From: Streptomyces sp. NBC_01244
Lineage (GTDB): Bacteria > Actinomycetota > Actinomycetes > Streptomycetales > Streptomycetaceae
DNA length: 64,000 nucleotides
Direction of reading: 5' to 3'
Assembly (NCBI RefSeq): GCF_035987325.1
Contig: NZ_CP108488.1
Span: forward strand, 4,340,001 to 4,404,000
The translations under genes and the position numbers were made by a program. How positions within the stretch are numbered: position 1 is the stretch's first letter; every line of letters begins with the position of its first letter. Positions 3,398 to 42,881 of the stretch are shown one piece after another. Below the pieces are notes generated by a model that ran no database searches, was not told the origin of the DNA, and worked only from the letters and a program-made list of their open reading frames with translations.

Positions 3398-4804
3398 ATG
3401 AGCACGTCGGCCCCCGTGGACCGCTACTTCAAGATCTCCGAGCGCGGCTCGACCATCGGCCGCGAGGTCCGCGGCGGGTTCGCCACCTTCTTCGCGATGG
3501 CCTACATCATCGTGCTGAACCCGATCATCCTGGGCAGCGCGAAGGACATGTACGGCAACCAGCTCGACGGCGGCCAGCTGGTCACCGCCACCGTGCTGAC
3601 CGCGGCCTTCACCACCCTCCTGATGGGCGTGATCGGCAACGTCCCGATCGCCCTCGCGGCCGGCCTCGGCGTCAACACCGTCGTCGCCCTCCAGCTCGCC
3701 CCGCGCATGAGCTGGCCCGACGCCATGGGCATGGTGGTCCTGGCGGGCTTCGTGGTGATGCTGCTGGTCGCCACCGGCCTGCGCGAGCGGGTCATGAACG
3801 CGGTCCCGGTCGGCCTGCGCAAGGGCATCGCCATCGGCATCGGCCTGTTCATCCTGCTGATCGGCCTGGTCGACTCGGGCTTCGTCACCCGCATCCCGGA
3901 CCTCGCGCACACCACGGTCCCGATCCAGCTCGGCGGCAACGGCCACCTGCACGGCTGGCCCGTCCTGATCTTCGTGGTCGGCGTCCTGCTGACGCTCACC
4001 CTGATCATCCGCAAGACCCCCGGCGCGATCCTGATCTCCATCGTGGCCATGACCGTCACCGCCCTGGTGATCCAGCTGATCACCAAGCTCCCGGACGCCG
4101 CCTGGGGCCTGACGGTCCCCGAGTGGCCGGGCAACCCGGTGGCCGCGCCCGACTTCGGCCTCATCGGCCAGGTCAGCCTGTTCGGCGGCTTCGGCAAGGT
4201 CGGCATGCTCACGGGCATCCTGTTCGTCTTCACCGTGCTGCTGTCCTGCTTCTTCGACGCGATGGGCACCATCCTCGGCGTCGGCGACGAGGCGAAGCTG
4301 ACGAAGCCGGACGGCTCCTTCCCCGGCATCAACCGGGTCCTGTTCGTGGACGGCATGGCCGTCGCCGCGGGCGGCGCCTCCTCCTCCTCGGCCACCACCT
4401 GCTTCGTGGAGTCCACGGCCGGCGTCGGCGAGGGCGCCAGGACGGGCCTGGCGAACATCGTGACGGGCGGCCTCTTCACCGTGTCGCTGTTCCTCACGCC
4501 GCTCGCCACGATGGTCCCCTCGCAGGCGGCCACGCCCGCTCTCGTCGCGGTCGGCTTCCTGATCATGGCCGGCTCGGTCAGGGACATCGACTGGAACGAC
4601 TTCACGATCGCCGTCCCGGCCTTCCTGGCCATGGTGATGATGCCGTTCACGTACTCGATCACCAACGGCATCGGCATCGGCTTCGTGGCCTTCTCCGTAC
4701 TGCGGCTGGCGACCGGCCGGGGCCGCGAGGTCCCGGTGGCCATGTACATCGTGTCGGCGGTCTTCGTCTTCTACTACGCGATGCCGGCCCTGGGCCTCAC
4801 GTAA
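3398..4804 (+). CDS. NCS2 family purine permease (AzgA type)
   Basis: A 468-residue polytopic membrane protein of the nucleobase:cation symporter-2 family, AzgA branch (hypoxanthine/guanine/adenine uptake). Diagnostic stretches are the NPIILGSAKD segment after the first helix, the PIALAAGLGVN helix and FFDAMGTILGVGDEA in the second half, together with about 12 hydrophobic helices. An ATG at 3398 (MSTSAPVDRYF) matches the family start. An ATG at 3368 would add ten proline- and arginine-rich residues and is less likely. The stop overlaps the convergent ribbon-helix-helix gene by 8 bp. The exact purine transported cannot be read from the sequence. Confidence 0.85.
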   Translation: MSTSAPVDRYFKISERGSTIGREVRGGFATFFAMAYIIVLNPIILGSAKDMYGNQLDGGQLVTATVLTAAFTTLLMGVIGNVPIALAAGLGVNTVVALQLAPRMSWPDAMGMVVLAGFVVMLLVATGLRERVMNAVPVGLRKGIAIGIGLFILLIGLVDSGFVTRIPDLAHTTVPIQLGGNGHLHGWPVLIFVVGVLLTLTLIIRKTPGAILISIVAMTVTALVIQLITKLPDAAWGLTVPEWPGNPVAAPDFGLIGQVSLFGGFGKVGMLTGILFVFTVLLSCFFDAMGTILGVGDEAKLTKPDGSFPGINRVLFVDGMAVAAGGASSSSATTCFVESTAGVGEGARTGLANIVTGGLFTVSLFLTPLATMVPSQAATPALVAVGFLIMAGSVRDIDWNDFTIAVPAFLAMVMMPFTYSITNGIGIGFVAFSVLRLATGRGREVPVAMYIVSAVFVFYYAMPALGLT

Positions 4805-4979
4805 GGCCGTAGAACTTCTCCGTCTCGTCGACGGCCGCCTTGAAGCGTTCGTCGAAATCGTCGCGAATGAGCGTCCGGACCACATAGTCCTGGACGCTCA
4901 TTCCTCGTTTGGCGGCATGAGTCCGGAGCCTGTCGAGGAGCTCCCCGTCTATGCGCATGCTCAGCACATGTGTCCCCAT
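4797..4979 (-). CDS. Small ribbon-helix-helix DNA-binding protein
   Basis: A 60-residue protein starting at ATG 4977-4979. The N-terminal strand HVLSMRIDGELLDRL and the helices LRTHAAKRGMSVQDYVVRTLIRDDF form a classic MetJ/Arc (CopG-like) ribbon-helix-helix fold, followed by a short acidic tail. Such proteins bind DNA as dimers and often act as antitoxins, but no toxin-like gene is adjacent. It lies between the convergent permease, which it overlaps by 8 bp, and the divergent marR-MFS operon. It may regulate its own promoter or act as a standalone repressor. Confidence 0.65.
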   Translation of the reverse strand: MGTHVLSMRIDGELLDRLRTHAAKRGMSVQDYVVRTLIRDDFDERFKAAVDETEKFYGLT

Positions 4980-5073
4980 GCCGAAAGAGTCGGGGCACAG
5001 GGCATGGACGCGTGTCACTTTCCGGAGCCGACTCACCCGTACGAGTGACACCAGATAAGTGGTGTTCCTTAGG

Positions 5074-5093
5074 TAGAGTAATGAGTTACTCTA
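5074..5093. promoter_or_regulatory. Perfect 8-bp-arm dyad, likely MarR operator
   Basis: TAGAGTAA and TTACTCTA are perfect inverted arms around a TGAG spacer, giving a 20-bp dyad of the size MarR dimers bind. It covers the upstream in-frame ATG at 5081 and ends 5 bp before the ATG at 5099. That argues for 5099 as the real start and for autorepression at this site. Confidence 0.7.
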
Positions 5094-5098
5094 AAGAC

Positions 5099-5536
5099 AT
5101 GCATGACCTTTCCCATGGTGACGACGCAGCCGCCGTGAACGACCTCCGCTCCGCCGTCATGCGGCTGGGCCGGCGCCTCAAGCACCAGCGCGTCGACGAA
5201 TCGCTGAGCCCGACCGAGATGTCGGTGCTCGGCACCCTCGCCCGCTGCGGCCAGGCCACCCCCGGTGAGCTGGCCCGGCGCGAGCACGTGCAGCCGCCGT
5301 CCATGACGCGCATCGTCGCGTTGCTGGAAGCCAAGGGACTGGTCACGCTGGAACCGCACCCCGACGACCGCCGCCAGAAGGTGGTCCGCCAGACGGAGGA
5401 GGCCGAAGCGATGCTCGAAGAGAGCCGTCGCAAGCGCAACGCCTTCCTCGCCGGGCTCGCGGCCGAGCTGACCGAGGACGAATGGGCGAAGCTGCGCGAA
5501 GCCGCGCCCGTCCTGGACAAGCTCGCGCACCTATAG
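5099..5536 (+). CDS. MarR family transcriptional regulator
   Basis: A winged helix-turn-helix regulator of 145 residues if started at ATG 5099 (MHDLSHGDD), or 151 from ATG 5081. The MarR core is clear. SPTEMSVLGTLARCGQATPGELARRE is followed by the recognition helix QPPSMTRIVALLEAKGLV and then the wing PHPDDRRQKVV. The N- and C-terminal helices form the dimer interface. I prefer 5099 because the 20-bp dyad at 5074-5093 overlaps the earlier ATG. It is followed 25 bp downstream by an MFS exporter, so this is the common arrangement in which the regulator represses its own efflux operon. The ligand is not predictable. Confidence 0.85.
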   Translation: MHDLSHGDDAAAVNDLRSAVMRLGRRLKHQRVDESLSPTEMSVLGTLARCGQATPGELARREHVQPPSMTRIVALLEAKGLVTLEPHPDDRRQKVVRQTEEAEAMLEESRRKRNAFLAGLAAELTEDEWAKLREAAPVLDKLAHL

Positions 5537-5561
5537 GAACGACGCCAGGAGGCGACCCCTT

Positions 5562-6920
5562 TTGAGTACGGGACCCGGAGCAGACTCCGCCCCCGGCCAC
5601 ACACCCACCACTACGCGCACGCACCGCACGTCCAAGAACGCGCGGAACAAGAACTCGATGTTCAGCTCGCTGAAGATCCGGAACTACCGGCTCTTCGCCA
5701 CGGGCCAGGTCGTCTCGAACACCGGCACCTGGATGCAGCGCATCGCACAGGACTGGCTGGTCCTGTCGCTGACCGGATCCGCCTCGGCGGTCGGCATCAC
5801 CATCGCGCTGCAGTTCCTGCCGATGATGCTGTTCGGGCTCTACGGAGGCGTACTCGCCGACCGGCTCCCCAAGCGGCCGCTGCTGCTCTGCACCCAGGCG
5901 GCCATGGGCCTCACCGGCCTCGCACTCGGTGTCCTCACCCTCGCCGGCCACGTCAACGTCTGGCACGTCTACCTCGCGGCCTTCCTCCTCGGCCTGGTCA
6001 CCGTCGTGGACAACCCGGCCCGGCAGACCTTCGTCTCCGAGATGGTCGGCAAGGACCAGGTGGCCAACGCGGTCAGCCTGAACTCGGCCAACTTCCAGTC
6101 CGCGCGACTGGTCGGCCCCGCCATCGCCGGTGTCCTCATCACCGCCGTCGGCTCCGGCTGGGCCTTCCTGCTCAACGGCCTGTCCTTCGCGGCGCCGATC
6201 GCGGCCCTGCTGCTGATGCGGACCCGCGAACTGCACCAGGTCGAGGTCCAGCCCCGCGCGAAGGGCCAGCTCCGCGAAGGCCTGCGGTACGTCGCCGGGC
6301 GGCCCGAGCTGATCTGGCCGATCGTGCTCGTCGGCTTCATCGGCACCTTCGGCTTCAACTTCCCGATCTGGCTGTCCGCCTTCGTCAGCAAGGTCTTCCA
6401 CGGCGACGCGGGCACGTACGGGCTCTTCAACACCCTGATCGCGGCGGGCTCCCTGGCGGGTGCCCTGCTGGCGGCCCGGCGGGGCCTGTCCCGCCTGCGG
6501 CTGCTGGTCGCGGCGGCGGTGCTCTTCTCCGTCCTCCTGCTCGTGACGGCCTTCGCGCCGAGCTTCTGGCTGTTCGCGGCGCTGCTGGTCCCCCTCGGGG
6601 TCTTCGGCCTGACGGTGAACGTCACCGCCAACTCCAGCGTCCAGATGGCCACCGACCCCGAGATGCGGGGCCGGGTGATGGCCCTGTTCATGATGGTCTT
6701 CACCGGCGGCACCCCCATCGGCGCCCCGCTGGTCGGCTGGGTCACGGACACCTACGGCGCGCGGATCGGCATGGCCGCGGGCGGAGCGGTCTCCCTGGCC
6801 GCCGCCGTCACGATCGGCCTCGTCCTCTCGCGCATCGGCAACCTCCGCCTCAGCGTGAACCGCCACGGCGTGACCTTCGTGCCCTCGGACCGCCGCCGCC
6901 AGCTGGCGACGGCGGCGTAG
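5562..6920 (+). CDS. MFS transporter, DHA3-like (transmembrane secretion effector type)
   Basis: A 452-residue major facilitator protein. The TTG start at 5562 is supported by an AGGAGG 9 nt upstream (5547-5552). After a roughly 35-residue hydrophilic leader comes FSSLKIRNYRLFATGQVVSNTGTWMQRIAQDWLVL, the opening typical of the DHA3/MFS_3 group. ADRLPKRPLLL forms the loop 2-3 motif and about 12 helices follow. It ends in a basic tail. It is co-transcribed with the MarR gene, which suggests export of a small toxic molecule that is the MarR ligand. The 25-bp stem at 6941-6993 terminates the operon. Confidence 0.85.
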   Translation: MSTGPGADSAPGHTPTTTRTHRTSKNARNKNSMFSSLKIRNYRLFATGQVVSNTGTWMQRIAQDWLVLSLTGSASAVGITIALQFLPMMLFGLYGGVLADRLPKRPLLLCTQAAMGLTGLALGVLTLAGHVNVWHVYLAAFLLGLVTVVDNPARQTFVSEMVGKDQVANAVSLNSANFQSARLVGPAIAGVLITAVGSGWAFLLNGLSFAAPIAALLLMRTRELHQVEVQPRAKGQLREGLRYVAGRPELIWPIVLVGFIGTFGFNFPIWLSAFVSKVFHGDAGTYGLFNTLIAAGSLAGALLAARRGLSRLRLLVAAAVLFSVLLLVTAFAPSFWLFAALLVPLGVFGLTVNVTANSSVQMATDPEMRGRVMALFMMVFTGGTPIGAPLVGWVTDTYGARIGMAAGGAVSLAAAVTIGLVLSRIGNLRLSVNRHGVTFVPSDRRRQLATAA

Positions 6921-6940
6921 CGCCTCGCGGTGCCTGAGGG

Positions 6941-6993
6941 CGCCTCGAACGCCGGCGGGGCTGGAAAATCCAGCCCCGCCGGCGTTTGAGGCG
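6941..6993. terminator. Strong hairpin terminator from paired REP-like repeats
   Basis: Two inverted copies of the CGCC(T)C(G/A)AACGCCGGCGGGGCTGG repeat face each other (6941-6965 and 6969-6993). They make a 25-bp stem with one G-U wobble and a 3-nt AAA loop. A third half-copy follows at about 6999-7022. The position is just after the MFS stop codon. Confidence 0.75.
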
Positions 6994-7086
6994 ATCTTTC
7001 AGCCCCGCCGGCGTTCGAGGAGCGGGGCTCCGGGGGCCGGCCCCGGTAACGGCGCCGCACCGGGCACCCGCCGCTAGGCTCGGGCC

Positions 7087-7677
7087 ATGAGACTGTTCGC
7101 AGCCGTCATCCCGCCCGAGGCGGCCATCGCGGAACTGGCCGAGGCCGTGCGCGACCTGCGCGACGACCACCTCCGCTGGACCGCGGAAGCGGGCTGGCAC
7201 TTCACCCTCGCCTTCATGGGCGAGGTACGGGAGGAGCTGCTCCCCGAGCTCCACACCCGCCTCGCCCGCGCCGCCGCGCACACCGCACCCTTCCCGCTCC
7301 GGATCCACGGCTCCGGCCACTTCGGCCACCGCTCCCTGTGGGCCGGCGCCGCCGGCGACCTCGACGCCCTGCGCATGCTCGCCGAGCGCGCCGACGCCGC
7401 CGCCCGGCGCTCCGGGGTGCCCATGGACCAGCACCACCGCTACACCGCCCACCTCACCCTCGGCCGGCTCCGCGACGAGCGGCACGACGTCCGCCCCTAC
7501 TGCACGGCCCTGGCCTCCTTCGAGGGCACCGCCTGGCAGGTCGGCGAGCTCAGCCTGGTCCGCAGCAACCTGCCCGACTCCGGCGTCCCCGGCGAGCAGC
7601 CCCGCTACGAGGTCGTCGGCTCGTGGGAACTGGGAGAGCCCGCCCCTCCGTACGAAGGGCGGGCCCGCTCGCGTTAG
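7087..7677 (+). CDS. thpR: RNA 2',3'-cyclic phosphodiesterase (2H family)
   Basis: A 196-residue cytosolic 2H phosphoesterase. Both catalytic His-x-Thr motifs are present: HFTLAFMG (about residues 38-45) and HLTLGRLR (about residues 122-129). The protein begins MRLFAAVIPPE, the normal start of bacterial ThpR/LigT proteins. The family hydrolyses 2',3'-cyclic phosphate ends of RNA and can ligate 2'-5' tRNA halves in reverse. The length is normal. A GC-rich hairpin at 7638-7664 overlaps the last codons and may terminate transcription. It stands alone with no pathway context. Confidence 0.9.
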   Translation: MRLFAAVIPPEAAIAELAEAVRDLRDDHLRWTAEAGWHFTLAFMGEVREELLPELHTRLARAAAHTAPFPLRIHGSGHFGHRSLWAGAAGDLDALRMLAERADAAARRSGVPMDQHHRYTAHLTLGRLRDERHDVRPYCTALASFEGTAWQVGELSLVRSNLPDSGVPGEQPRYEVVGSWELGEPAPPYEGRARSR

Positions 7678-7686
7678 GCTCGACGG

Positions 7687-7776
7687 GTGGATCCCAAGAC
7701 CAGAAACCGCGTCATGGCCGGTGTGCTCGTACTGATGTTCGTCGTGGTGGCCGTGGCCGCCGCCGTGGGCCAGTAG
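7687..7776 (+). CDS. Tiny single-span membrane protein (29 aa)
   Basis: A 29-codon frame begins at GTG 7687 and stops at TAG 7774-7776. The product starts MDPKTRNR, which is hydrophilic and basic, and continues into one hydrophobic helix rich in Val, Leu and Ala that ends at GQ. Charged residues precede the helix, consistent with an N-in single-span peptide. It follows thpR by 9 bp and codon third positions are G/C-rich. I recall similar very short membrane peptides in streptomycete genomes, but no function. It is too short for homology to be certain. Confidence 0.5.
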   Translation: MDPKTRNRVMAGVLVLMFVVVAVAAAVGQ

Positions 7777-7800
7777 GACGGCGGGCCCGCCGGGCGGCTC

Positions 7801-8790
7801 CTACCAGGCGAACGCCTCCGGAGCCGGCCCCGGCCCCGGGAAGACCTCGTCCAGCCCGGCCAGCACCTCCGGCGATAGCTCCAGCTCCACCGCCCGCAGC
7901 GCGGACGCGAGCTGCTCCGGCGTACGCGGACCGACGATCGGGCCGGTGACCCCGGGACGCGTCAGCAGCCAGGCCAGGGCGACCTCGCCGGGCTCCAGTC
8001 CGTGCTTGTCCAGCAGGTCCTCGTACGCCTGCACCTGCGCCCGTACGGAACTGTTCGCGAGCGCGTCCGCCGAGCGGCCGCTCGCCGTCCGCCCCGACTC
8101 CGCCGCCTTGCGGATGGCCCCGCCCAGCAGCCCGCCGTGCAGCGGGGACCACGGGATGACGCCGAGCCCGTACGCCTCGGCCGCCGGAATGATCTCCAGC
8201 TCCGCCCGCCGCTCGGCGAGGTTGTAGAGGCACTGCTCGCTGACCAGGCCGAGCCGCCCCGAACGCGCCGCGGCCTCGTTGGCCTGGGCGATCTTCCAGC
8301 CGGGGAAGTTCGAGGAGCCGGCGTACAGCACCTTGCCCTGCTGGATCAGGACCTCGACGGCCTGCCAGATCTCCTCGAAGGGCGTCAGCCGGTCCACGTG
8401 GTGGAACTGGTAGATGTCGATGTAGTCGGTGTTCAGGCGCTTGAGGCTGGCGTCGACGGCCCGCCGGATGTTCAGCGCCGACAGGCGGTCGTAGTTGGGC
8501 CACGGGTCGCCCTCCGCGGCCATGCTCCCGTAGACCTTGGTGGCGAGGACCGTCTTCTCACGGCGTCCGCCGCCCTGGCCGAACCAGGTACCGATGATCT
8601 CCTCGGTACGGCCCTTGTTCTCGCCCCATCCGTACACGTTGGCCGTGTCGAAATAGTTGATACCGGCGTCGAGCGCCGTGTCCATGAGGGCGTGGCTCTC
8701 CGGCTCTCCCGTCTGGGGGCCGAAGTTCATGGTGCCGAGGACAAGTCGGCTGACCTTGAGACCGGTGCGTCCGAGCTGCGTGTACTCCAT
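7801..8790 (-). CDS. Aldo/keto reductase
   Basis: A 329-residue NADPH-dependent oxidoreductase with the AKR TIM-barrel. It starts MEYTQLGRTGLKVSRLVLGTM. The catalytic tetrad is visible as Asp in FDTAN, Tyr in NVYGWGENK, Lys in LATKVYG and His in YQFHHVD. The C-terminal GPRTPEQLASAL segment contributes to NADP binding. Length and spacing are normal, so the enzyme looks intact. The ATG at 8788-8790 is preceded, on its own strand, by GAAGGAG and a MerR-type dyad (8798-8832), so induction by a MerR regulator is likely. The TnpB-like island begins immediately upstream of this promoter region. Confidence 0.88.
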   Translation of the reverse strand: MEYTQLGRTGLKVSRLVLGTMNFGPQTGEPESHALMDTALDAGINYFDTANVYGWGENKGRTEEIIGTWFGQGGGRREKTVLATKVYGSMAAEGDPWPNYDRLSALNIRRAVDASLKRLNTDYIDIYQFHHVDRLTPFEEIWQAVEVLIQQGKVLYAGSSNFPGWKIAQANEAAARSGRLGLVSEQCLYNLAERRAELEIIPAAEAYGLGVIPWSPLHGGLLGGAIRKAAESGRTASGRSADALANSSVRAQVQAYEDLLDKHGLEPGEVALAWLLTRPGVTGPIVGPRTPEQLASALRAVELELSPEVLAGLDEVFPGPGPAPEAFAW

Positions 8791-8797
8791 GGGCCAC

Positions 8798-8832
8798 TAG
8801 CCAACTCCTTCGAGCCCACTCCAGGCAAGACC
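8798..8832 (-). promoter_or_regulatory. MerR-type dyad / promoter region of the aldo/keto reductase (left island flank)
   Basis: On the minus strand this reads GGTCTT, then a 20-nt imperfect palindrome (8807-8826), then AGTTGGCTA. The CTGGAGTG...CTCGAAG dyad set between -35-like and -10-like boxes resembles MerR-family operators at streptomycete aldo/keto reductase genes. A related copy sits at the other side of the TnpB-like gene (11185-11219), in the same overall orientation but with the 20-nt core inverted. Confidence 0.5.
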
Positions 8833-9146
8833 AAGACCCTCCGCATGGAGTCGGTAGCCCCTTGAGTCGGGCGATGCGCGCTCGGCCCGGCGCTTGGCGA
8901 GCGGCTTGCTCTTATGCGATGGCTCTGAGGAGTACGCGATAGTCCAACAGGCGCGCGAGGAAGGCCCTTCCTGGGAGTCCGACCCACTGGAGCAGGGGTT
9001 TTGGGCGCAGGCTGACGACTTGGTCTGCGACAGGACGAAGAGTGCAGACGTGCTGGATGGCAATCTCGAGCCGCACCAGCCCTCCACGCGTAGTCACGAT
9101 GCTGTCGCATTGCGTGATGATGGTCGGCTAATCTGCGACAGAGGGG
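8833..9146. other. Gene-free left arm of the TnpB-like island
   Basis: About 310 bp with no convincing gene. Short open frames exist on both strands (for example 8894-9190 plus and 8912-9097 minus) but lack recognisable domains. G+C is visibly lower than in neighbouring genes. This is the expected place for the left end and promoter of the transposon-derived gene that starts at 9147. Confidence 0.5.
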
Positions 9147-11168
9147 GTGACAGTGGTGCGGGCTGCTCAGACGTGCAGGTTCCGGGGTAAGAACAAGGCT
9201 CCGAAGTGGAAGAAGCCCGACGACGGGCAGGTGTCGGTGATGGTGCTGCCGCTGGCCGTCGACGATCCCGCTGACCTGGCCCGCGTGGAGAAGCTGTTCG
9301 GCGCGATGTGGGCGATCAAGCGAGCCGTCCAGCGCGATGCCCGCGCCAAGGTTGATGCCTGCTGGGTCGCGTTCCACGAGCGAGAGCGCGACGGGGTGAA
9401 GGCCGTGCGGCAGCGTCTCGGGCTGTCCCGTGAGGCCTTGGAGCGGTGTGCGTACAAGCACCTCGAAGACTCGGGGCACTTGAAGCACCACGCCTCGAAG
9501 GCCCTGGCCATGCACATGGCCGACGAGGTGTGGAACGGAGTCCAGCGCCACCTGTTCCCCGACGCCACCGGCAAGCGGCACGGCCGCCCGAAGACGGGTC
9601 GCTGGTACGACTTCACCCGCGTCCCCGGCCGCGCCCGCTCCCACACCACCGACCGCAAGTGGGAGACCTTCCGCCTCGTCGGCTCATTGCACGGCCACAC
9701 GATGGCCTACACCAACGGCGGCCGGCACACCCTTCAGCAGCCCCGCCGGATGCCAGTGCCGGCCGCACCGTCTGGCAGCGTGCCCACCGGCAACGCCACG
9801 GCGTCGCGAAAGCCGGGCACGCGAAAGGCGACGTGGTGGGACCACGCGGGACCGCTCGCCGTGGTGTTCACGGGCGGCCCGGACGGGAGCCGGGGTGACC
9901 TGGTGCTCCCGGTGCGTATCCCGCAGCAGCCCGGCCAGTGGGAGCGCGTCGAACACTTCCTGTCGAATCCCGGCCGCTGGCACAAGGTCGATCTCGTCCG
10001 CCGCCGCAGGGCATCCGCTCCGGGCGGCTGGGTGTATGAGGCGCACCTAATGACCCTCGGCCCCGGATACGCCGCCCCCGCCGTGCGGCAGATGCGCGAC
10101 CGGGCTGCTGAGATGGACCGGATCGGCGGGGTGGACGGCAACGTCTCCAACGTCTCGATCGTCTCCCTGCCCGCCGGCCTCGACCCGGCCGCCGGTGTCC
10201 CGGCCTCCACCGAGATCACCCTCAGCCCCGCCGAACGGGCTCTGCTGGAGCAGGAGGCAAAGAAGCGACGCGGACGATCTCGGGCCTTGGAGCGATCCCG
10301 CCGGGCCACCAACACTGCACAGTACGGCCTGTCGAAGAAGCAGGCCCGCCGCGCCGAGCACCGGGCCTCCAAGGGCCTGCCCGAGAAGGCTGTGACGGTA
10401 CCGGGCGGTGCCCGCGCTTCCCGGTCGGACGGGGTGCCGAAGCGGGCGTTCCGCCGTGACCGTCTGTCCACCGAGTACCGGGAGCTGCGCGCCCGCCAGG
10501 CCGAGGCGGCAGCTTCGGCCGCCGAGCGCCGCCGCCATCGCGCCCGTCTCCTCGCCCGGCAGATCATCGCCGCGCACGGCCCCGTGCTCGTGGTCGAGGA
10601 CTGCGACATCCGCACCTGGTACCGGCTGTGGGGCAAGCGACTCTCCCAGACCACACCCGGCCTGCTCATCGCTGCCCTTGAGCGCGAATGCACGGCTGCG
10701 GGCGGCCGTCTGGTACGGGCCTCCATGTGGTCGACGGCCCTGTCTCAGCACTGCCTGTGCGGCGAACGCGTGAAGAAGACCCTGCGGGACCGGGAACACA
10801 AATGCATCGCGTGCGGACTCACCGGGAAACGCGACCTCGTGTCCGCCGCCCTGGCCTCCTTCGTCCGCTTCACCGACGTGGACGACCCCAAGACCGCGTA
10901 CCTGGACACCACCGCGTCCCAGCATGCACAGATCACCTTCGCCCAAGGGCTGGAAGAAGCCCTGCGGGAGTCAACCGCACCGAGCCAGACCACCACGTCT
11001 CGTGGTGCTGGTCATGCGGCAGTCCCACGGCAACGCCGTGGGACCTCTGCTCCCCGAACCGCCGGACGGCGGTCCCGAGCGACCCCGGATGAGCCACGCC
11101 CCGTGCGTGACCACGCCGGAAAGCCCGGACACCGCCCCGGCTGCAACCCGCAGCTCACCCTCTGGTGA
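9147..11168 (+). CDS. Large TnpB/Cas12-like RuvC nuclease (solo, no TnpA)
   Basis: A 673-residue protein with a split RuvC nuclease site: Asp330 in GGVDGNVSN, Glu484 in VLVVEDCDI and Asp563 in GKRDLVSAALA. A zinc ribbon lies between the last two (Cys536, Cys538, Cys553, Cys556). That is the TnpB/IS605-OrfB/Cas12 architecture. It is much longer than the usual 370-450 residue TnpB because of an extended N-terminal domain (residues 1-310) and an Arg-rich loop (residues 365-470). The GTG at 9147 follows an AGAGGGG stretch; GTGs at 9153 and 9156 are alternatives. No TnpA transposase or CRISPR array is near. Three hairpins occupy the 3' end of the frame. All catalytic residues are intact, so activity is plausible. 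Confidence 0.8.
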   Translation: MTVVRAAQTCRFRGKNKAPKWKKPDDGQVSVMVLPLAVDDPADLARVEKLFGAMWAIKRAVQRDARAKVDACWVAFHERERDGVKAVRQRLGLSREALERCAYKHLEDSGHLKHHASKALAMHMADEVWNGVQRHLFPDATGKRHGRPKTGRWYDFTRVPGRARSHTTDRKWETFRLVGSLHGHTMAYTNGGRHTLQQPRRMPVPAAPSGSVPTGNATASRKPGTRKATWWDHAGPLAVVFTGGPDGSRGDLVLPVRIPQQPGQWERVEHFLSNPGRWHKVDLVRRRRASAPGGWVYEAHLMTLGPGYAAPAVRQMRDRAAEMDRIGGVDGNVSNVSIVSLPAGLDPAAGVPASTEITLSPAERALLEQEAKKRRGRSRALERSRRATNTAQYGLSKKQARRAEHRASKGLPEKAVTVPGGARASRSDGVPKRAFRRDRLSTEYRELRARQAEAAASAAERRRHRARLLARQIIAAHGPVLVVEDCDIRTWYRLWGKRLSQTTPGLLIAALERECTAAGGRLVRASMWSTALSQHCLCGERVKKTLRDREHKCIACGLTGKRDLVSAALASFVRFTDVDDPKTAYLDTTASQHAQITFAQGLEEALRESTAPSQTTTSRGAGHAAVPRQRRGTSAPRTAGRRSRATPDEPRPVRDHAGKPGHRPGCNPQLTLW

Positions 11169-11180
11169 ATTACGGATCAA
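10988..11180 (+). ncRNA. Candidate omega-RNA (guide scaffold) overlapping the 3' end of the TnpB-like gene
   Basis: Three consecutive perfect hairpins lie in the C-terminal tail region. They are 10991-11007 (7-bp stem, TCT loop), 11022-11044 (10-bp stem GTCCCACGGC, AAC loop) and 11058-11073 (7-bp stem, GA loop). The encoded tail is low-complexity (Arg, Ala, Pro, Thr) and lies beyond the last RuvC residue, as if the DNA were selected for RNA structure and not protein. TnpB guide RNAs are known to overlap the 3' end of tnpB and run to the right end of the element. Boundaries here are inferred. Confidence 0.5.
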
Positions 11181-11184
11181 GTCT

Positions 11185-11219
11185 TAGCCAACTGCCTGGA
11201 GTGCGCTCGAAGCAAGACC
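11185..11219 (-). promoter_or_regulatory. MerR-type dyad, right flank of the TnpB-like island
   Basis: On the minus strand this reads GGTCTTG, then CTTCGAGCGCACTCCAG, then GCAGTTGGCTAAG. A palindromic core of this kind between -35-like and -10-like boxes is the layout of MerR-activated promoters. TAGCCAACT and AAGACC match the left flank (8798-8832) in direct orientation, while the 20-nt core matches it best (18 of 20) as its reverse complement. Confidence 0.45.
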
Positions 11220-11236
11220 CGCCCGTGAAGCGCGTG

Positions 11237-11929
11237 TTACGTGTCCTGCCGCGGCCGGTACGGGCCCCCCAGGCCCCAGGCCTGGTGCAGGACCGCCGCG
11301 AACTCCCCCGCCAGGCGGTGCTCGCCGCAGGCGTTGGGGTGCGTGCCGTCGTAGGTGTCCCGGTCGATCTCGTACGCCTCCGGGCGGGCGGCCAGCAGGA
11401 TCGGCGAAGCGGGGGTCGACAGGTCGGCGACCGCCTTGCCGAGCAGCTCGTTGAAGAGCTCGACCTGCTGCGCGAAGGGCGCGTCGTCCCGGGCCCGGAC
11501 GTTGGGTATGACGGGCAGCAGGACCATCCGTATCCCGGGCCGGGCGGCGCGGGCCTCCGCGATGAACCGGCGGACGTTGGCGGCGGTGCCCTCGGCGGAG
11601 GTGTAGAAGCCCAGGTCGATCAGCCCGAGGGAGACCAGCAGCAGGTCGGCCCCGCAGGAGCGGACGGCGGGCCCGATGAGCGGGGCCATGTGCTGCCAGC
11701 CCTCGCCCCAGCCGGCCAGGTGGCGGCGGGCGTCGGCGGGGAAGCCCGGGTCGGCGTAGGCCTCGCTGGTCGGCGCGTCCGCGAGGGCGTCGTAGAGGCC
11801 GCTGCGCGGGCCGACGATCTCGTACGGGCCGCCGAAGGTGGTGTCGAGGTGCTGCCACATCCGATAGCGCCAGGTGTAGTCGCCGGCGCATCCGACGGTC
11901 ATGGAATCCCCGACGAACATGAAACGCAT
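11237..11929 (-). CDS. SGNH/GDSL hydrolase family protein
   Basis: A 230-residue esterase-fold protein starting at ATG 11927-11929. The nucleophile block is GDSMTVG (residues 7-13) and the catalytic Asp/His block is YDGTHPN near residue 200. Together with LLLVSLGLIDLG in block III position these define the SGNH hydrolase fold. There is no signal peptide from this start, so it is probably cytoplasmic. The substrate is unknown; family members cleave acyl, acetyl or thioester bonds. The frame remains open upstream, but the earlier residues are alanine-rich noise that overlaps the divergent secreted-protein gene. It is about 75 bp from that divergent gene. Confidence 0.8.
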   Translation of the reverse strand: MRFMFVGDSMTVGCAGDYTWRYRMWQHLDTTFGGPYEIVGPRSGLYDALADAPTSEAYADPGFPADARRHLAGWGEGWQHMAPLIGPAVRSCGADLLLVSLGLIDLGFYTSAEGTAANVRRFIAEARAARPGIRMVLLPVIPNVRARDDAPFAQQVELFNELLGKAVADLSTPASPILLAARPEAYEIDRDTYDGTHPNACGEHRLAGEFAAVLHQAWGLGGPYRPRQDT

Positions 11930-12005
11930 CCGGTCATCTTCGCGGATCACCGGGCCGCGGCCCCTGTGATGCCGGACACGCGGGGCGGGCTGGCAGGGTA
12001 GGGGG

Positions 12006-13031
12006 ATGCGCCCGCACCTGCTGCCCCTGACCGCCGCCGCCGCTGCCGTCCTCGCCCTGCTGCCCTCGGCCGCCGCCGCCGCGGCAGGGTCGGCCGGGTC
12101 CGCGTCCGGGTCCGCCGCGTCCGGGTTCACGATCACCGACCCCCGGATCAAGGAGTCGAGCGGGCTCACGGCCAGCCGGATCCACCCCGGCGTCTACTGG
12201 ACGCACAACGACAGCGACGACGGCCCGTACGTGTACGCCGTGGACTCCGCGACCGGGAAGACGGTCGCGCGGATCACCCTGACGGGCATCGGCACACCGC
12301 GGGACATCGAGGGGATCTCGCTGGGCCCGGACGGGCGGCTGTACGTCGGTGACATCGGGGACAACCGGGGCGGCTCCTGGAACCACGTGTGGATCTACCG
12401 GTTCGCCGAGCCGAGGACGCTCCGGGACGCCACGCTCAAGGCCGAGCAGTTCACGGTGAAGTACGCCGACGGGCCGCGGAACGCGGAGGCACTGATGGTG
12501 CATCCGGTGACGGGGCGGGTGTACATCGCGAGCAAGGACGAGAAGGCCGGCGGGCTGTACGAGGGCCCGGAGTCGCTGTCCGCCTCCGGCACGAACACCT
12601 TCCGGCGGATCGGGGACGTCCCGTGGGTCACGGACGGGGCGTTCTCCCCGGACGGGGGGCGGCTCGCGCTGCGGGGGTACTTGTGGGCGAAGACGTACCC
12701 GTGGAAGGACGGGCGGCCCGCCGGGGACGGGGAGGCGGTGGCCGCGCCGTGGCAGGGGCAGGCGGAGTCCGTGACGTACACGGCGGACGGGACGACGCTG
12801 ATGTTCGGGGCGGAGGGGGCGAACAGCCGGGTCGTCGCCGTGCCGGTCGCGGCCGCCGCGAAGCCGTCGGCGTCGGGGTCCGCCCCCGTTTCCGGTGCTC
12901 CGGCTCCTTCCCCGGGCGCGCCCGCCGCCCCCGACGGCGGAAGCTTCACGAAGGGCGCGCTCGTCCTGGTCGCGGCCCTGACCCTCACCCTTGCCGCGAA
13001 GCGGCTCCTCCGCCGCCGCCCCAAGCCCTGA
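12006..13031 (+). CDS. Secreted, membrane-anchored beta-propeller-like protein
   Basis: A 341-residue protein with a Sec signal peptide (residues 1-29, ending in AAAAAAG). The luminal domain has repeated blade-like motifs: YWTHNDSDDG, GPDGRLYVGDIGDNR, HPVTGRVYIASKDE, FSPDGGRLALR and TADGTTLMFG. A Pro/Ala/Ser linker (about residues 285-312) leads to a C-terminal helix and an RRRPKP tail, so it stays anchored outside the cell. Streptomycetes have many such WD40-like proteins of unknown role. No enzyme signature is visible. It diverges from the SGNH hydrolase gene about 76 bp away. Confidence 0.65.
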   Translation: MRPHLLPLTAAAAAVLALLPSAAAAAAGSAGSASGSAASGFTITDPRIKESSGLTASRIHPGVYWTHNDSDDGPYVYAVDSATGKTVARITLTGIGTPRDIEGISLGPDGRLYVGDIGDNRGGSWNHVWIYRFAEPRTLRDATLKAEQFTVKYADGPRNAEALMVHPVTGRVYIASKDEKAGGLYEGPESLSASGTNTFRRIGDVPWVTDGAFSPDGGRLALRGYLWAKTYPWKDGRPAGDGEAVAAPWQGQAESVTYTADGTTLMFGAEGANSRVVAVPVAAAAKPSASGSAPVSGAPAPSPGAPAAPDGGSFTKGALVLVAALTLTLAAKRLLRRRPKP

Positions 13032-13075
13032 CCCTCCGGGGCGGGGCCGGGTGCGGGTGCGGGTGGGTGGGCCCT

Positions 13076-13290
13076 GCGGGGCGAAGTCCCCTACCCGCCC
13101 TTCCACCGTTCCCCGGGCGCTGCCCGGACCCCTCCTGGGGCTTCCGCCCCAGACCCCGGTCCTCAAACGCCGGACGGCTGAAAAACCCGAACGCCAGCGG
13201 GCACGTGCGGTCCGACGCCGGCAAAATCCAGCCCCTCCGGCGTTTGAGGAGCAGGGGTCCGGGGACTGGTCCCCGGCAACGGCGCCGCGC
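13076..13290. repeat. Composite REP-like repeat between convergent genes
   Basis: It begins with the GCGGGGCGAAGTCCCC module shared with 30847 and 46601. Inverted CTCAAACGCCGGA copies at 13162-13174 and 13236-13248 can pair over 13 bp. A GGGGACTGGTCCCC hairpin follows near 13262. It lies between the convergent secreted-protein and flotillin genes, so it probably terminates both. Confidence 0.65.
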
Positions 13291-13299
13291 CGCTGCGGC

Positions 13300-14802
13300 T
13301 CAGGCTCCCTGGATCGGGATCTGGTGGGAGGTCGCGGGAGAGGATCCGTTGGTCGGAGCTTCCGTGGGAGGCGTCGGCTGGGACATCGTCGACAGGAGTT
13401 GGCGGGCCAGGCCAAGGCCCGTGCCGCCCATCGTCAGGGCCTTCGCAAACATCTCCGACATGCCCTCCGCCCCGTTGAGCAAGATCATGTGCTCTACGTT
13501 GCCGAAGGCACCCGCTCCCGCCTCCACGATCGCCGGCCAGTTCTCGGCGAGCTGCTGCGCGACCACCGCCTCCTGGTTCTCCGCCAGCGCGGCGGCCCGC
13601 GCCTGGATGGCCGCCGCCTCCGCGAGGCCCTTCGCCTTGGCGGCCTCCGCCTGCGCCAGCCCGTTCGCCTGGGCCGACGCCGCCTCCGCGAGGCCCTTGG
13701 CCTGCGTCGCCGCCGCCTCCGCCTCGCCGGTCGCGCGGGTGGCCGTCGCCGCGGCCAGGCCGCGTGCCTCCGTGGCCTTCGCGTCGGCCGCGGCCGCCGT
13801 GGTCACCCGGGTCGCCTCGGCCGCGGCCGCCAGCTCCGTCTCCTTCGCCTTGGCCTGCGCCGCCGAGATGCGGGCGTCGCGGTCGGCCTCGGCCCGGGTC
13901 CGGGTCTCGTACGCCGCCGCGTCCGCCGGCTTGCGCACGTCCGCCTGGAGCTGCTGCTCGCGCCGGTGCGCCTCCAGCTCCGCCACCCGGGTCTCCTGGA
14001 CCACGACCTCCTGCCGCGCCGCCGCCTCCGACAGCGGGCCCGCCTGCCGGGCCGTCGCGGCCGCCTTGTCCCGCTCGGCCTGGTAGCCGGCCTGGAGGAT
14101 CTCGCTGTCCCGGGTGGCCTCCGACATCCGCGCGAAGGCGGCCTGTTCGGCCTCGGTGGCCCGCAGGTTGGCGTCCGCCTGGGCGATGCGCGCGTCCCGC
14201 TGGACGGCCGCCGCGTGCGGCATCGCCAGGTTCTTGATGTAGCCCGTCGGGTCCTCGATCTCGTGGATCTGGAGGGAGTCGACGATCAGGCCGAGCTTCT
14301 CCATCTCGGTCCCGCACGCGGCCCGGGTCTGCCCGGTCAGCTTCTCCCGATCGCGGATCATGTCCTCGACCGTCAGGCCGCCGACGATGGACCGCAGATG
14401 GCCGGCGAAGACGATGTGCACCCGCTCGGGCATCATCTTCTGCTGGTCCAGGAAGCGGCGGGCCGCGTTGGCGATGGACACGAAGTCGTCGCCGATCTTG
14501 AAGATGACCACGCCCTTGACCCGCAGCGGAATGCCCTGGTGGGTCACGCAGTCCACGTTCAGCTGGGTCTCGTTGAGGTCCAGCGACAGCTTCCGCACGG
14601 CCTGCACGCCGGGCATCACCATGGTTCCGCGCCCGGTGACGATCCGGAAGCCCATGCCCTCCGCGATGCCCTCGGTCTTGTGCGCGGAGCCGGAGATGAC
14701 CAGTGCCTCGTTGGGCTCGGCCACCCGCCACATGAGCTTGAACAGGCCGATCGCGGCCGCGATCGCACCCACGACAATCCCTGCCAGTACGCCGACAGAC
14801 AT
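13300..14802 (-). CDS. Flotillin family (SPFH domain) membrane scaffold protein
   Basis: A 500-residue protein starting at ATG 14800-14802, with a GGGGGAG ribosome site 6 nt upstream. A TTG two codons earlier is less likely. An N-terminal membrane helix (about residues 6-25) leads into an SPFH domain (about residues 28-200, with PNEALVISG and GIPLRVKGVVIFKIGDD). A long alanine/glutamate heptad-rich coiled coil (about residues 205-430) follows, with repeated AKGLAEAA units. Flotillins organise membrane microdomains. A small NfeD-like gene lies 127 bp upstream on the same strand, the usual partner. The C-terminal tail is Pro/Thr-rich and unstructured. Confidence 0.88.
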   Translation of the reverse strand: MSVGVLAGIVVGAIAAAIGLFKLMWRVAEPNEALVISGSAHKTEGIAEGMGFRIVTGRGTMVMPGVQAVRKLSLDLNETQLNVDCVTHQGIPLRVKGVVIFKIGDDFVSIANAARRFLDQQKMMPERVHIVFAGHLRSIVGGLTVEDMIRDREKLTGQTRAACGTEMEKLGLIVDSLQIHEIEDPTGYIKNLAMPHAAAVQRDARIAQADANLRATEAEQAAFARMSEATRDSEILQAGYQAERDKAAATARQAGPLSEAAARQEVVVQETRVAELEAHRREQQLQADVRKPADAAAYETRTRAEADRDARISAAQAKAKETELAAAAEATRVTTAAAADAKATEARGLAAATATRATGEAEAAATQAKGLAEAASAQANGLAQAEAAKAKGLAEAAAIQARAAALAENQEAVVAQQLAENWPAIVEAGAGAFGNVEHMILLNGAEGMSEMFAKALTMGGTGLGLARQLLSTMSQPTPPTEAPTNGSSPATSHQIPIQGA

Positions 14803-14929
14803 CGGCAACTCCCCCTCTTACGCGGCGGCGTTCGCCGTCGAGAAGGCGAGTGTGCGCCCGTGTCGCAGGGGCGTGAAGACGGCTGCCGAATCTTGTCGCC
14901 ATCTTGATACGAGAGGACGGGACCCCTGG

Positions 14930-15148
14930 TCAGTCGCCGTACGCGGCCATCACGTAGACCGTCCGCGGCGGCAGGTACTCGACCACCGTGACCACCGTGC
15001 CGACCGTCAGCCGGCCCGTCCCCGGCGCCGGGTGCGCGAGGAAGTGCTCGGCTCCGCCCCGGATCCGCACGATGACCTCGCCGACCAGCCCCGGCCCGAC
15101 CGTTCCGGTGACCCGGCCGTCCAGTCCCACCATGTCCGATTCCCCCAT
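14930..15148 (-). CDS. Small NfeD-like OB-fold protein, flotillin partner
   Basis: A 72-residue protein from ATG 15146-15148; ATG at 15131-15133 (MVGLDG) is an alternative. The sequence GLDGRVTGTVGPGLVGEVIVRIRGGAEHFLA...GTVVTVVEYLPPRTVYV resembles the C-terminal OB-fold (beta-barrel) domain of NfeD proteins without its membrane part. NfeD-flotillin gene pairs are widespread and their products interact at the membrane. Here the gene precedes the flotillin gene on the same strand, so co-transcription is likely. It starts about 18 bp from the ABC ATPase stop and may belong to a longer transcript. Confidence 0.6.
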   Translation of the reverse strand: MGESDMVGLDGRVTGTVGPGLVGEVIVRIRGGAEHFLAHPAPGTGRLTVGTVVTVVEYLPPRTVYVMAAYGD

Positions 15149-15165
15149 GCACCGAGCGTACGGGG

Positions 15166-16473
15166 CTATCCCCGTGCGGGGTCCTCGTCGAGCCGGTATT
15201 CCTCGCCGTCCGCGTGATAGCCGTACAGCTCCCCGTAGCGGCCCCAGTCCGTCGCCGTCTCCAGTTGCTGCTCCAGCTGCTCGCTCGTGTAGTGGTGCGA
15301 GAGCAGGTCGCGGAAGAAACCGGCCCGCTGGGTGCCGCCCCGGGAGCGCTCCAGGGTGGTGTGGATCAGGTGGACCAGCGGGACCTCCATGGCCCCCTCG
15401 GCGAACAGTTCCTTCGACTCCTGTACGTCGGCCCCCGCGAAGGCGGTGCCGCGCGCGGTCAGCACCAGGTGCAGGTCCCGTACCTCGGCCAGGCCCAGCA
15501 GTTCCAGCCCGTCCACCTGGGGCAGTACGTCGTCCACCTCGAGGCCCAGTTCCTCGGCGAGGTCGGCGAGGTCCACGCTGCCGTCGCCGGTGCCCCGCTG
15601 GAGCACGATCTCGGCGAGGCCCGCCATGCCGTCGACGCTGGCCGCCGGGAGCGGGGTGTTGGCCGGGGTGCGTTTGGCCGGCGGGGCCGTGGCCGGGGTC
15701 TTGGCGGTGCGGCCGGTCATCACCGCGTACACGGCGTCCACGATCCGCTCGAAGTCGGCGCCGCCCCGGTCCCGGGGGCGGGCCAGGTCCACCGCGAAGG
15801 TCTCCTTGATGGTGCCGTAGGGCCGCGAGCCCAGCACCACCACCCGGTCGGCCATCAGCACCGCCTCCTCGATGTTGTGCGTGACCAGCACCACCGCCTT
15901 GGCGGGGAAGCGGTCGGAGGCCCACAGCTCCATCAGCTCGCCGCGCAGGTTCTCGGCGGTGAGCACGTCCAGCGCGGAGAACGGCTCGTCCATCATCAGC
16001 ACGTCCGGTTCCACGACGAGCGCCCGGGCGAAGCCGACGCGCTGGCGCATCCCGCCGCTGAGCTCCTTCGGGTAGGCCGACTCGAAGCCGTCGAGGCCGA
16101 TCAGGTCGATGGCCTCCACCGCCTGCCGGGCCCGCGCCTCGCGGTCCATGCCCTTGGCTTCCAGGCCCAGTTCGACGTTCTGCTGCACCGTCAGCCAGGG
16201 CAGCAGCGCGAAGGTCTGGAACACCATCGCCGTGCCCGGGTTCGCCCCGCGCAGCTCGTCGCCCCGGTAGGTGACCGAGCCGGAGCTGGCGGGGATCAGC
16301 CCGGCGAGGCAGCGCAGCAGGGTGGACTTGCCGCTGCCGGACTTCCCGAGGAGGGCGACGATCTCGCCCTCGCGGATCTCCAGGTCGATGCCGCCGAGCA
16401 CGGGCAGCTCCCCGTCGGCGCCGGCGTAGGACTTGGTGAGGGCGGCGGCCTGGAGGATCGTGGTCGCGGTCAT
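15166..16473 (-). CDS. ABC transporter ATP-binding protein, nitrate/sulfonate/taurine type with C-terminal AAA-associated domain
   Basis: A 435-residue protein. The first 250 residues form an ABC ATPase with Walker A GKSGSGKST, signature LSGGMRQRVGFARAL, Walker B DVLMMDEPFSALD and switch His in VTHN. The rest, about residues 285-430, is an AAA-associated domain found fused to this ATPase subfamily and containing winged-helix-like segments (ADLAEELGLEVDDVLPQVDGLELLGLAEV). Such proteins pair with a double permease, and here that gene lies just upstream on the same strand. No substrate-binding protein gene is visible, so the substrate is unknown. Confidence 0.85.
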   Translation of the reverse strand: MTATTILQAAALTKSYAGADGELPVLGGIDLEIREGEIVALLGKSGSGKSTLLRCLAGLIPASSGSVTYRGDELRGANPGTAMVFQTFALLPWLTVQQNVELGLEAKGMDREARARQAVEAIDLIGLDGFESAYPKELSGGMRQRVGFARALVVEPDVLMMDEPFSALDVLTAENLRGELMELWASDRFPAKAVVLVTHNIEEAVLMADRVVVLGSRPYGTIKETFAVDLARPRDRGGADFERIVDAVYAVMTGRTAKTPATAPPAKRTPANTPLPAASVDGMAGLAEIVLQRGTGDGSVDLADLAEELGLEVDDVLPQVDGLELLGLAEVRDLHLVLTARGTAFAGADVQESKELFAEGAMEVPLVHLIHTTLERSRGGTQRAGFFRDLLSHHYTSEQLEQQLETATDWGRYGELYGYHADGEEYRLDEDPARG

Positions 16474-41555: not shown

Positions 41556-41769
41556 CGGACGGGGCCGCCGAGCCCTACGTCGGCCGGATGACGCGCCAGG
41601 AGCCCTACGAGGTCCTGTTCACGGAGTCGGCGGGCCGTGAGCGGGCCCGGCTGGAACCCGTGCACCGCGCGTTGGGGGATCACCGGCCTGTGCGGGTGAT
41701 CGGCTACTCGTTCGGGTGGTGCGTCGGGGTTCCGGAGACCGGAGCAGGCTACGGTTCCAGGTTGGCGTC

Positions 41770-42881
41770 ATGGGGGCATTGGCGGAGGTCGGGGAGGGCG
41801 TGCGCGCCCGGTACACCTTCCGGCTGCGCGTGTCGTCTGCTGCGGACTTGGCCCTGATGCGTGAGTGGGACCGGTGCCGATGGGTGTGGAATCAGTGCGT
41901 CGCTCAGTCGCGGGCGGCACACAAGGCCAAGCAGAAGTGCGGGCCTGCCGGTCTCGACAGGATGCTCACCGGATGGCGCGGTGAGCGTGAGTGGCTGCGC
42001 GCGGGTGGGAGTGTGCCGCAACAGCAGGTCATCCGGGACTTCGCCGCCTCCCGTACCAAGGCATTGAAGGACATCAAGGCACGATTGCCGGTCCGGCGGC
42101 GAGCGGGGATGCCGCGATTCAAGAAGAAGGTCGTCGCCGGTCCGAACTTCCCTCCGATCCGTCCAGCGTCCGCGTCAACCGGGACAGTCTCGGGCACTGG
42201 TACGCCTCCTTCGTCGTCCAGACGGAAATGCAGCCGCTGCCGACAACAGGCGCGGTGATCGGTGTCGACTGGGGTGTGAAGGAGACCGCCACCACGACGA
42301 GCGACGCCCAAGACCTGCCGCATCCCGAGTACGGCAGGCGGTCGGCGGGGAAGCTGGCGGGCTATCAGCGGATGATGGCACGCCGGAAGCCCAGGCGCGG
42401 CCAGGCCGCTTCGGCGGGCTACCGGAAGGCGAAGCGGCAGGCCGCGAGAGTCCAGAAGAAGATCGCGCGGCAGCGGCAGGACACAGCCCGCAAGTGGGCC
42501 AAGCGCGTGGTGACGGACTTCGACCACCTCGCGGTGGAGGACTTCCGGCCGAAGTTCCTGGCCAGGTCGACGATGGCGCGCAAGGCTGCCGACGCGGCGA
42601 TCTCGGCGACCAAGCGCGAGTTGATCAGCATGGCGCGCAAGCACGGCCGGATCATCCATCTTGTGCATGCGGCTCACACGACTATGGACTGCGGACGGTG
42701 CGGGGCGAGAACCAAGCACGCACTGCCACTGTCGGAACGTACGTACACGTGCACCAGGTGCGGATCCATCTCTCCACGGGACAAGAACTCCGCACGCGTG
42801 ATGCTCGTCCGGGCTGGTCTCAACCCGGCTACCACTGATCGCGGAAGACCTGGCGGACCGCCGGTCCGCCAGGCAGCGTGA
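41770..42881 (+). pseudogene. Decayed tnpB (IS605 OrfB), frameshifted by internal deletion
   Basis: The first part (ATG 41770) encodes ARYTFRLRVSSAADLALMREWDRCRWVWNQCV and reaches RFKKKVVAGP in one frame. The rest continues in another frame from about SELPSDPSSVRVNRDSLGHWYASFVV (42130 onward). RuvC residues remain: Asp in IGVDWGVKET, Glu in HLAVEDFRPK and Asp in PRDKNSARV, with a CGRCG...CTRCG zinc ribbon. Compared with intact relatives, about 30 residues between FKKK and the ELP motif are missing. The junction near 42130 is therefore a deletion that also shifted the frame. The protein should be inactive. Confidence 0.75.

Follow-up and report, generated by a model that had tools for sequence, protein, structure and literature searches.

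We analysed a 64,000-nucleotide stretch of the genome of Streptomyces sp. NBC_01244 (contig NZ_CP108488.1, positions 4,340,001 to 4,404,000, forward strand; the whole stretch is called the window in the following), which encodes a large TnpB-like nuclease. Our reading, to which we assign a probability of about 0.8, is that this gene is part of a decayed IS5-type bacterial DDE transposon, whose TnpB-like nuclease would be RNA-guided and would re-cut empty sites, paralleling the Fanzor transposons of eukaryotes. The relatives of the element have defined ends with terminal inverted repeats, a DDE transposase gene divergent from the nuclease gene, a covarying RNA at the element boundary and conserved catalytic residues in the nuclease.

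Element ends and DDE transposase

To place the gene in its family we used a protein search, in which 916 of 8000 scored sequences qualified as relatives at E ≤ 0.001 (the best 120 of them being listed), and a genome scan. The scan yielded 73 loci, some of them partial, with 12 at different places in Streptomyces sp. AP-93. Complete elements are 2.8-3.2 kb long and shorter, deleted ones exist. Hosts are Streptomyces as well as plasmids of Euzebya and Mycobacteroides.

In 44 other loci the DNA similarity to the window breaks off sharply at position 11187. The shared sequence closes with ...CGGATCAAGTCTTAG, slightly varied among loci, and beyond it the DNA differs. The sequence-only reading from which this analysis started had seen no clean right end; the end is in fact exact to the base. 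Longer copies open with CTAAGACTTGATCCG... or near variants, which is the inverted repeat of the right end. Of the 18 tabulated left ends, 16 have C and 2 have T as their outermost base, and in 17 of them TA comes next. On the right, 44 of 46 aligned ends close with G and the other 2 with A. The same layout is kept in distant relatives at about 50-58% protein identity, with ends near CTAAGAG..ATC.CG. Among 22 distant loci checked, both ends were found in eight (L040, L041, L042, L043, L044, L045, L051, L066) and the right end alone in ten; four (L056, L059, L060, L071) had no convincing end. Two contigs, L040 (3129 bp) and L043 (3124 bp), each coincide with a single element from repeat to repeat, which suggests that the two genomes hold multiple near-identical copies.

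From the ends and one exact empty site we infer that the target is YTAR, typically CTAG, with TA being duplicated. When the flanks of locus L052 were joined at CTA+G, contiguous orthologues turned up in other genomes. Six of these were aligned, and one reads CTAG exactly, the next 19 nt being identical if an alignment gap is closed. At the CTAG of the window insertion another genome (L106 in G012, ~1806-1962) contains a different insertion, about 160 bp long, whose inverted repeats start with GTGCTGTGACCGGAAAGG; CTAG may be a target that different insertions have in common.

The transposase gene lies between the left repeat and the nuclease gene. Its product contains HTH_Tnp_4 and DDE_Tnp_1/DDE_Tnp_4 domains above the Pfam cut-offs in L052, L051, L066, L040, L146 and L147; the fragment in L018 stays under the cut-off for DDE. 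In NCBIfam the IS5 models come nearest, yet all four transposases compared score below cut-off. In a survey of 71 loci (the 73 without L062 and L071) transposase sequence was found upstream of the nuclease on the opposite strand in 39, with stop-to-stop frames of at least 200 amino acids (aa) in 13. The nuclease had previously been called "solo". This description does not hold, since the element occurs in many copies, is bounded by terminal inverted repeats and, in these 39 loci, has at least traces of a DDE transposase. The same reading was correct in noting that TnpA and a CRISPR array are absent; TnpA is missing because the element has another kind of transposase. Between transposase and nuclease, L052 has a 67-aa open reading frame (ORF) at 5728-5931 on the minus strand, weakly HTH_17-like and under the Pfam cut-off, which may regulate the element.

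A transposase query matched in 65 of 121 Streptomyces genomes at E ≤ 1e-25. Matches of at least 57% identity were linked to the nuclease in G079, G070 (two) and G113, and the one in G109 lies at a contig end. In G120 a transposase fragment of 54-55% identity has no nuclease within the 8 kb examined, and no nuclease match was found at six loci with transposase relatives of 43-46% identity (L139-L144). The L066 transposase is 43-46% identical to those of such nuclease-free relatives. Two of the latter, L142 and L143, have a common unit of 880 bp, and the ends of L142 are CTAGAGGCTGTCCCGTAA, much like those of the nuclease-bearing element. Next to its fuller element, G113 has a second nuclease/RNA copy (L150, 4566-5099), which is truncated and possesses a right end of its own.

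On plasmids, tblastn at E ≤ 1e-60 returned five records, of which four were examined (all except H4). The Euzebya pacifica element (2785 bp) encodes a transposase of 254 aa and a nuclease of 665 aa; the annotated genes reach as far as the element does, each stop codon thereby forming part of one of its ends. The Mycobacteroides element (2833 bp) has perfect 19-bp repeats, with the nuclease annotated as 550 aa and preceded by a separate 118-aa ORF. In both, the gene order is the same as in Streptomyces and the match to the structured RNA described below stops at the repeat. A Mycobacterium chimaera relative (L149, 2048-4450) has a long nuclease frame and a short transposase gene (108 aa by coordinates).

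These data bear on the simplest alternative, namely that the gene is an ordinary TnpB of the IS200/IS605 or IS607 type which has lost tnpA, with an IS5-type element merely adjacent. Many solo tnpB genes exist, and TnpB-family models do match the RuvC part of the protein, if weakly. Mere adjacency is contradicted by the shared ends: the right end behind the nuclease is the inverted repeat of the left end at the transposase in both Streptomyces groups, in Euzebya and in Mycobacteroides, and the two single-element contigs are made of exactly the nuclease-transposase unit. We therefore regard this alternative as very improbable, and an IS605/IS607 remnant was rejected since neither the element ends nor the transposase fit.

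The nuclease

The catalytic triad and zinc-ribbon cysteines of the 673-residue protein, already named in the sequence-only reading, were confirmed, and all 29 aligned relatives have them unchanged (alignment A2). The database entry for the same gene (P0001) predicts 670 aa, such that a start near 9156 is possible. The stop codon occupies 11166-11168, and the feature end of 11180 given earlier overshoots it. The only Pfam domain found in the protein is the Cas12f1-like/TnpB zinc ribbon (PF07282, 27.1 bits against a cut-off of 26.3); the plasmid relatives L146, L147 and L149 fall slightly under this cut-off with 20.5, 25.1 and 25.3 bits. Profiles of PADLOC for Cas12u2/Cas12f match the C-terminal part weakly. 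With the single window sequence as query no solved structure was found at E ≤ 1. Judged by eye, the RuvC signatures in alignment A2 are GVDGN and VVEDCDI. The N-terminus is indeed longer than usual, as noted before, while the 250-300 extra residues claimed for it are an overstatement: the first RuvC aspartate is residue 330, compared to about 191 in ISDra2 TnpB.

From 171 pairs of 19 uninterrupted nuclease ORFs we obtained median ratios of nonsynonymous to synonymous divergence of 0.27 for residues 1-320, 0.24 for residues 325-600 and 0.45 for the tail. Such values indicate that the body of the nuclease is under purifying selection. Synonymous divergence was 0.30 in the tail compared to 0.51-0.58 in the body, as is expected where an RNA overlaps the reading frame.

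Structured RNA at the 3' end of the nuclease gene

The three perfect tandem hairpins reported earlier at 10991-11073 were recovered. Three such hairpins appeared in none of 500 dinucleotide shuffles of 10900-11187 and in none of 771 fixed-phase 83-nt tiles of the window, the latter being a weak control as the tiling also splits the hairpin site itself. Of the expectation that they are conserved and covarying, the part concerning hairpins 1 and 2 stands and extends to a larger fold. Hairpin 3, being absent from the consensus structure of the relatives, was dropped as a conserved element.

This fold was derived with RNAalifold from 46 aligned right ends (alignment A1), which comprise 44 of the 73 scanned loci, the window and a second site in L048. 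Loci truncated by contig ends, more distant loci, L030 and L046 (no recognisable end) and L073 (which has the end and lies outside the filter) are absent from it; L074, an internal deletion whose first part is non-homologous, was retained in the counts. The structure contains 49 pairs, 19 of them with compensatory changes. In the alignment 98.0% of the cells pair, against 25.0-42.5% once the structure is slid by 1-3 columns, a percentage favoured by design as the structure stems from the same 46 rows. Cells in which both partners changed numbered 123, compared to 32.9 (standard deviation 4.1) after shuffling, and none of 500 shuffles reached this number, with the caveat that related sequences can exceed shuffles through kinship. 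As a within-gene control, the same treatment was applied along the gene, using 36 copies after disrupted and internally deleted ones had been dropped: the 3' segment had 102 double-changed cells (29 when shuffled), while nine other segments had 0-22, the 22 belonging to segment 10743-11002, which overlaps the start of the RNA.

Distant relatives carry the RNA as well. Compensatory changes affect 7 of the 37 pairs predicted for 18 distant right ends. A covariance model built from the close group (R1), which takes in some conserved coding sequence, matched 21 of the 22 distant loci, 18 over the whole length, and also the elements of Euzebya (E 2e-11) and Mycobacteroides (E 6e-5). No Rfam family matched the RNA. 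The motif CCTCTGCTC occurs in 14 of 17 distant ORFs spread over all three frames (6, 6 and 2 members), and 13 of the 17 have GAGTCAACC, 8 in one frame and 5 in another. Among 33 close ORFs, 32 contain the first motif and 30 the second, each motif always in a single frame. An RNA motif that is read in all three frames among relatives means that the RNA is conserved rather than the peptide. In 31 of 44 loci the nuclease ORF stops 19 bp short of the right end, and in five it reaches that end; the other eight are interrupted or irregular. Covariation and reading-frame usage together indicate that the 3' end of the nuclease gene carries a conserved structured RNA of about 240 nt reaching the element boundary. 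Earlier it had been proposed that the gene encodes a TnpB/Cas12-like nuclease and ends in a structured RNA; both points are supported, with RNA-guided activity as a prediction.

Since the RNA passes through the inverted repeat to the end of the element, a guide would be flanking DNA as in TnpB. The predicted 20-nt guide of the window has a single genomic occurrence when up to 3 mismatches are allowed. Alternatively, the RNA could be a regulator of the element, e.g. an attenuator or an antisense target controlling the transposase. Its overlap with the end of the nuclease gene would suit such a role. We nevertheless consider this quite improbable: in both groups the RNA stops at the transposon boundary, an arrangement also seen for the guide RNAs of TnpB and Fanzor, and it accompanies an intact RuvC nuclease, while model R1 matched none of five plain IS5-type relative loci (L139-L144 minus L141).

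Two further observations concern the RNA. In Streptomyces sp. AP-93 an element of about 300 bp (L048, 4244-4547) lies upstream of a longer copy; it has both inverted repeats and the conserved RNA and lacks a nuclease ORF. This suggests that its RNA may be served in trans, as a candidate guide RNA. Elsewhere in the genome of the window (G000, contig C1, 6238954-6239003) a 50-bp DNA match to the RNA region (81%, E 3e-4) was missed by the RNA model.

The window copy

The genome containing the window (10.0 Mb in three contigs) has a single copy of the nuclease and one match to model R1. Features of the copy are listed in Table 1. The copy is a decayed family member that retains the right end, nuclease and RNA along with two scraps of the transposase and has lost its left end and most of the transposase. 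The left inverted repeat was not found in the window copy. A promoter dyad of the neighbouring aldo/keto reductase gene flanks the element at 11186-11222 and, with its core in opposite orientation, on the left; the duplication is possibly a repair product following loss of the left end.

Table 1. Features of the element copy in the window (positions refer to the window).
Feature	Position	Strand	Remarks
TnpB-like nuclease ORF	9147..11168	+	673 aa, GTG start; RuvC D330/E484/D563, zinc ribbon C536/C538/C553/C556
Structured RNA scaffold (omega/reRNA-like), putative	10946..11187	+	Covariation, model R1; overlaps 3' end of ORF, stops at element boundary
Hairpin 1	10991-11007	+	7 bp, loop 3; in consensus structure, covarying with compensatory changes
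Hairpin 2	11022-11044	+	10 bp, loop 3; in consensus structure, covarying with compensatory changes
Hairpin 3	11058-11073	+	7 bp, loop 2; seen in window, outside consensus structure of relatives
Right terminal inverted repeat	11166..11187	+	TGAATTACGGATCAAGTCTTAG; includes stop codon; shared right end of family
Inferred target duplication TA	11185-11186	+	G 11187 would then be part of target
Predicted 20-nt guide (flanking DNA)	11188..11207	+	Position by analogy with TnpB and Fanzor
DDE transposase remnant, N-terminal part	8954..9022	-	tblastn 65% over 23 aa, E 1.4e-6; DNA match ~8955-9035
DDE transposase remnant, C-terminal part	8860..8913	-	DNA identity to transposase region 75-80% (eight loci) and 89% (a ninth, ~34 bp)
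Second copy of aldo/keto reductase promoter dyad	8797..8831		Occupies expected place of left repeat

Elsewhere in the window an ordinary TnpB-like gene at 41716-42881 lies in two overlapping frames (180 and 296 aa) and appears disrupted. A 33-bp periodic repeat (13567-13845) is found within a long minus-strand ORF (13300-14808), and CAGCCCCGCCGGCGTTYGAGG is present at 6971-7020 as two 21-nt copies, 29 bp apart.

Weighing the transposon reading

Several results weigh against the reading as a nuclease-bearing transposon. The curated NCBIfam TnpB models reach the window protein with scores below cut-off (guided_TnpB 42.7 of 100, IS607 27.9 of 350 and IS200 14.3 of 425 bits), and sequence comparison with solved structures gave weak C-terminal matches (best E 0.0015) and none for the N-terminal half. 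The folding energy of the tail is ordinary compared to synonymous recoding (z +0.16). Just one empty site is an exact CTAG: five orthologues of L052 and three of L011 read TCAG, the genome G036, contiguous across the insertion site of the window, reads CCAG, and L066 yielded no contiguous empty site. Three Actinomadura loci (L056, L059, L060) have no recognisable ends and at most a partial match to the RNA. The Streptomyces plasmid copy L148 has no left repeat; for the M. chimaera plasmid L149 no inverted repeats were found and the match to model R1 is not significant (E 0.09). Finally, no transposase remnant was detected in 32 of the 71 surveyed loci.

The last point would also fit a nuclease that had been domesticated by its host, e.g. 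for RNA-guided regulation or defence, and had been kept after transposase loss. Many copies do retain an open ORF together with the RNA, the nuclease is under purifying selection, and L023 and L036, found in two species, have similar right flanks and appear to occupy one common site, probably as a shared insertion. A host function of this kind is nonetheless unlikely as the general explanation, given the 12 loci at differing places in one genome and a guide that lacks a second genomic match at up to 3 mismatches. TldR proteins are dead nucleases, and a TldR-like regulator was rejected because the triad is intact and the guide has a single genomic match. For the window copy the domestication considered in the sequence-only reading is unneeded, as it can be described as a decayed mobile element, while some of the copies without transposase may be domesticated.

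Comparison with known systems

The element shares with TnpB of IS200/IS605 and IS607 the RuvC triad, the zinc ribbon and an RNA that overlaps the 3' end of the gene and extends to the right end, as well as a guide predicted to come from the flank. It differs in having a DDE transposase, inverted repeats and insertion at CTAG with TA, whereas TnpB elements use Y1 or serine recombinases, and in the size of the nuclease (673 aa in the window compared to about 390-400 aa; an average of 390 aa is given for IS607 TnpB in PMC11061315). In Cas12f and other type V effectors the RuvC and TNB zinc-ribbon domains are alike. The present nuclease is borne on a transposon, and a CRISPR effector was rejected, no spaced repeat array being found in window positions 4000-16000.

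Similar in architecture are Fanzor1 and Fanzor2*, which reside in eukaryotic transposons with terminal inverted repeats. Fanzors are described from eukaryotic DDE and other transposons, and TnpB from IS605/IS607 (PMC3627910, PMC10711439). For Fanzor the reRNA scaffold is predicted to include inverted repeat and target duplication (PMC10711439), as we predict here. The present nuclease is bacterial, however, and has GVDGN in place of the DPG signature; the glutamate of VVED was read by eye as being at the TnpB-like position, in contrast to the alternative-glutamate signature described for Fanzor (PMC10711439). The transposase differs too, being of the IS5 type. With the IS5 family the element has in common a DDE_Tnp_1/DDE_Tnp_4 transposase with HTH_Tnp_4, terminal inverted repeats and a presumed short target duplication; in addition to these it carries the nuclease gene and the RNA, at a length of 2.8-3.2 kb. 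The element appears to act in the manner of TnpB and Fanzor. Its nuclease nevertheless scores under the curated TnpB cut-offs and lacks the Fanzor signatures, and the type of element is not that of TnpB.

Proposed mechanism and implications

The transposase would cut the element out and paste it at CTAG, with TA presumably being duplicated. The 3' part of the nuclease transcript would be turned into the RNA, whose scaffold would include the right inverted repeat and probably TA(G), and following the layout of TnpB and Fanzor the DNA after ...CTTA(G) would serve as guide. As its recognition motif the nuclease would then use CTAG at the empty site, with the guide sequence behind it. Nuclease and RNA would cut alleles without the element, and repair from the occupied copy would reinstall it.

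We think it likely that these elements represent an undescribed class of Actinomycetota transposons, in which an IS5-type DDE transposase is combined with a large TnpB-like RNA-guided nuclease. In this class the scaffold would have absorbed inverted repeat and target duplication, and the motif would equal the CTAG target of the transposase. It would be an independently evolved counterpart of Fanzor, leaving RNA-only derivatives (such as the one in L048) that are possibly served in trans. A bacterial TnpB-like nuclease in a DDE element was not found in the literature searched, the main survey of TnpB diversity lying outside that search. In that literature, nucleases of the TnpB line accompany Y1 or serine transposases in bacteria and DDE transposons in eukaryotes. 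If our reading is true, the bacterial DDE case would mean that nuclease capture happened outside eukaryotes too. It would provide a nuclease with a predicted 4-nt CTAG motif, and a tractable system for asking whether cutting of empty sites helps a cut-and-paste element that truly leaves its donor site.
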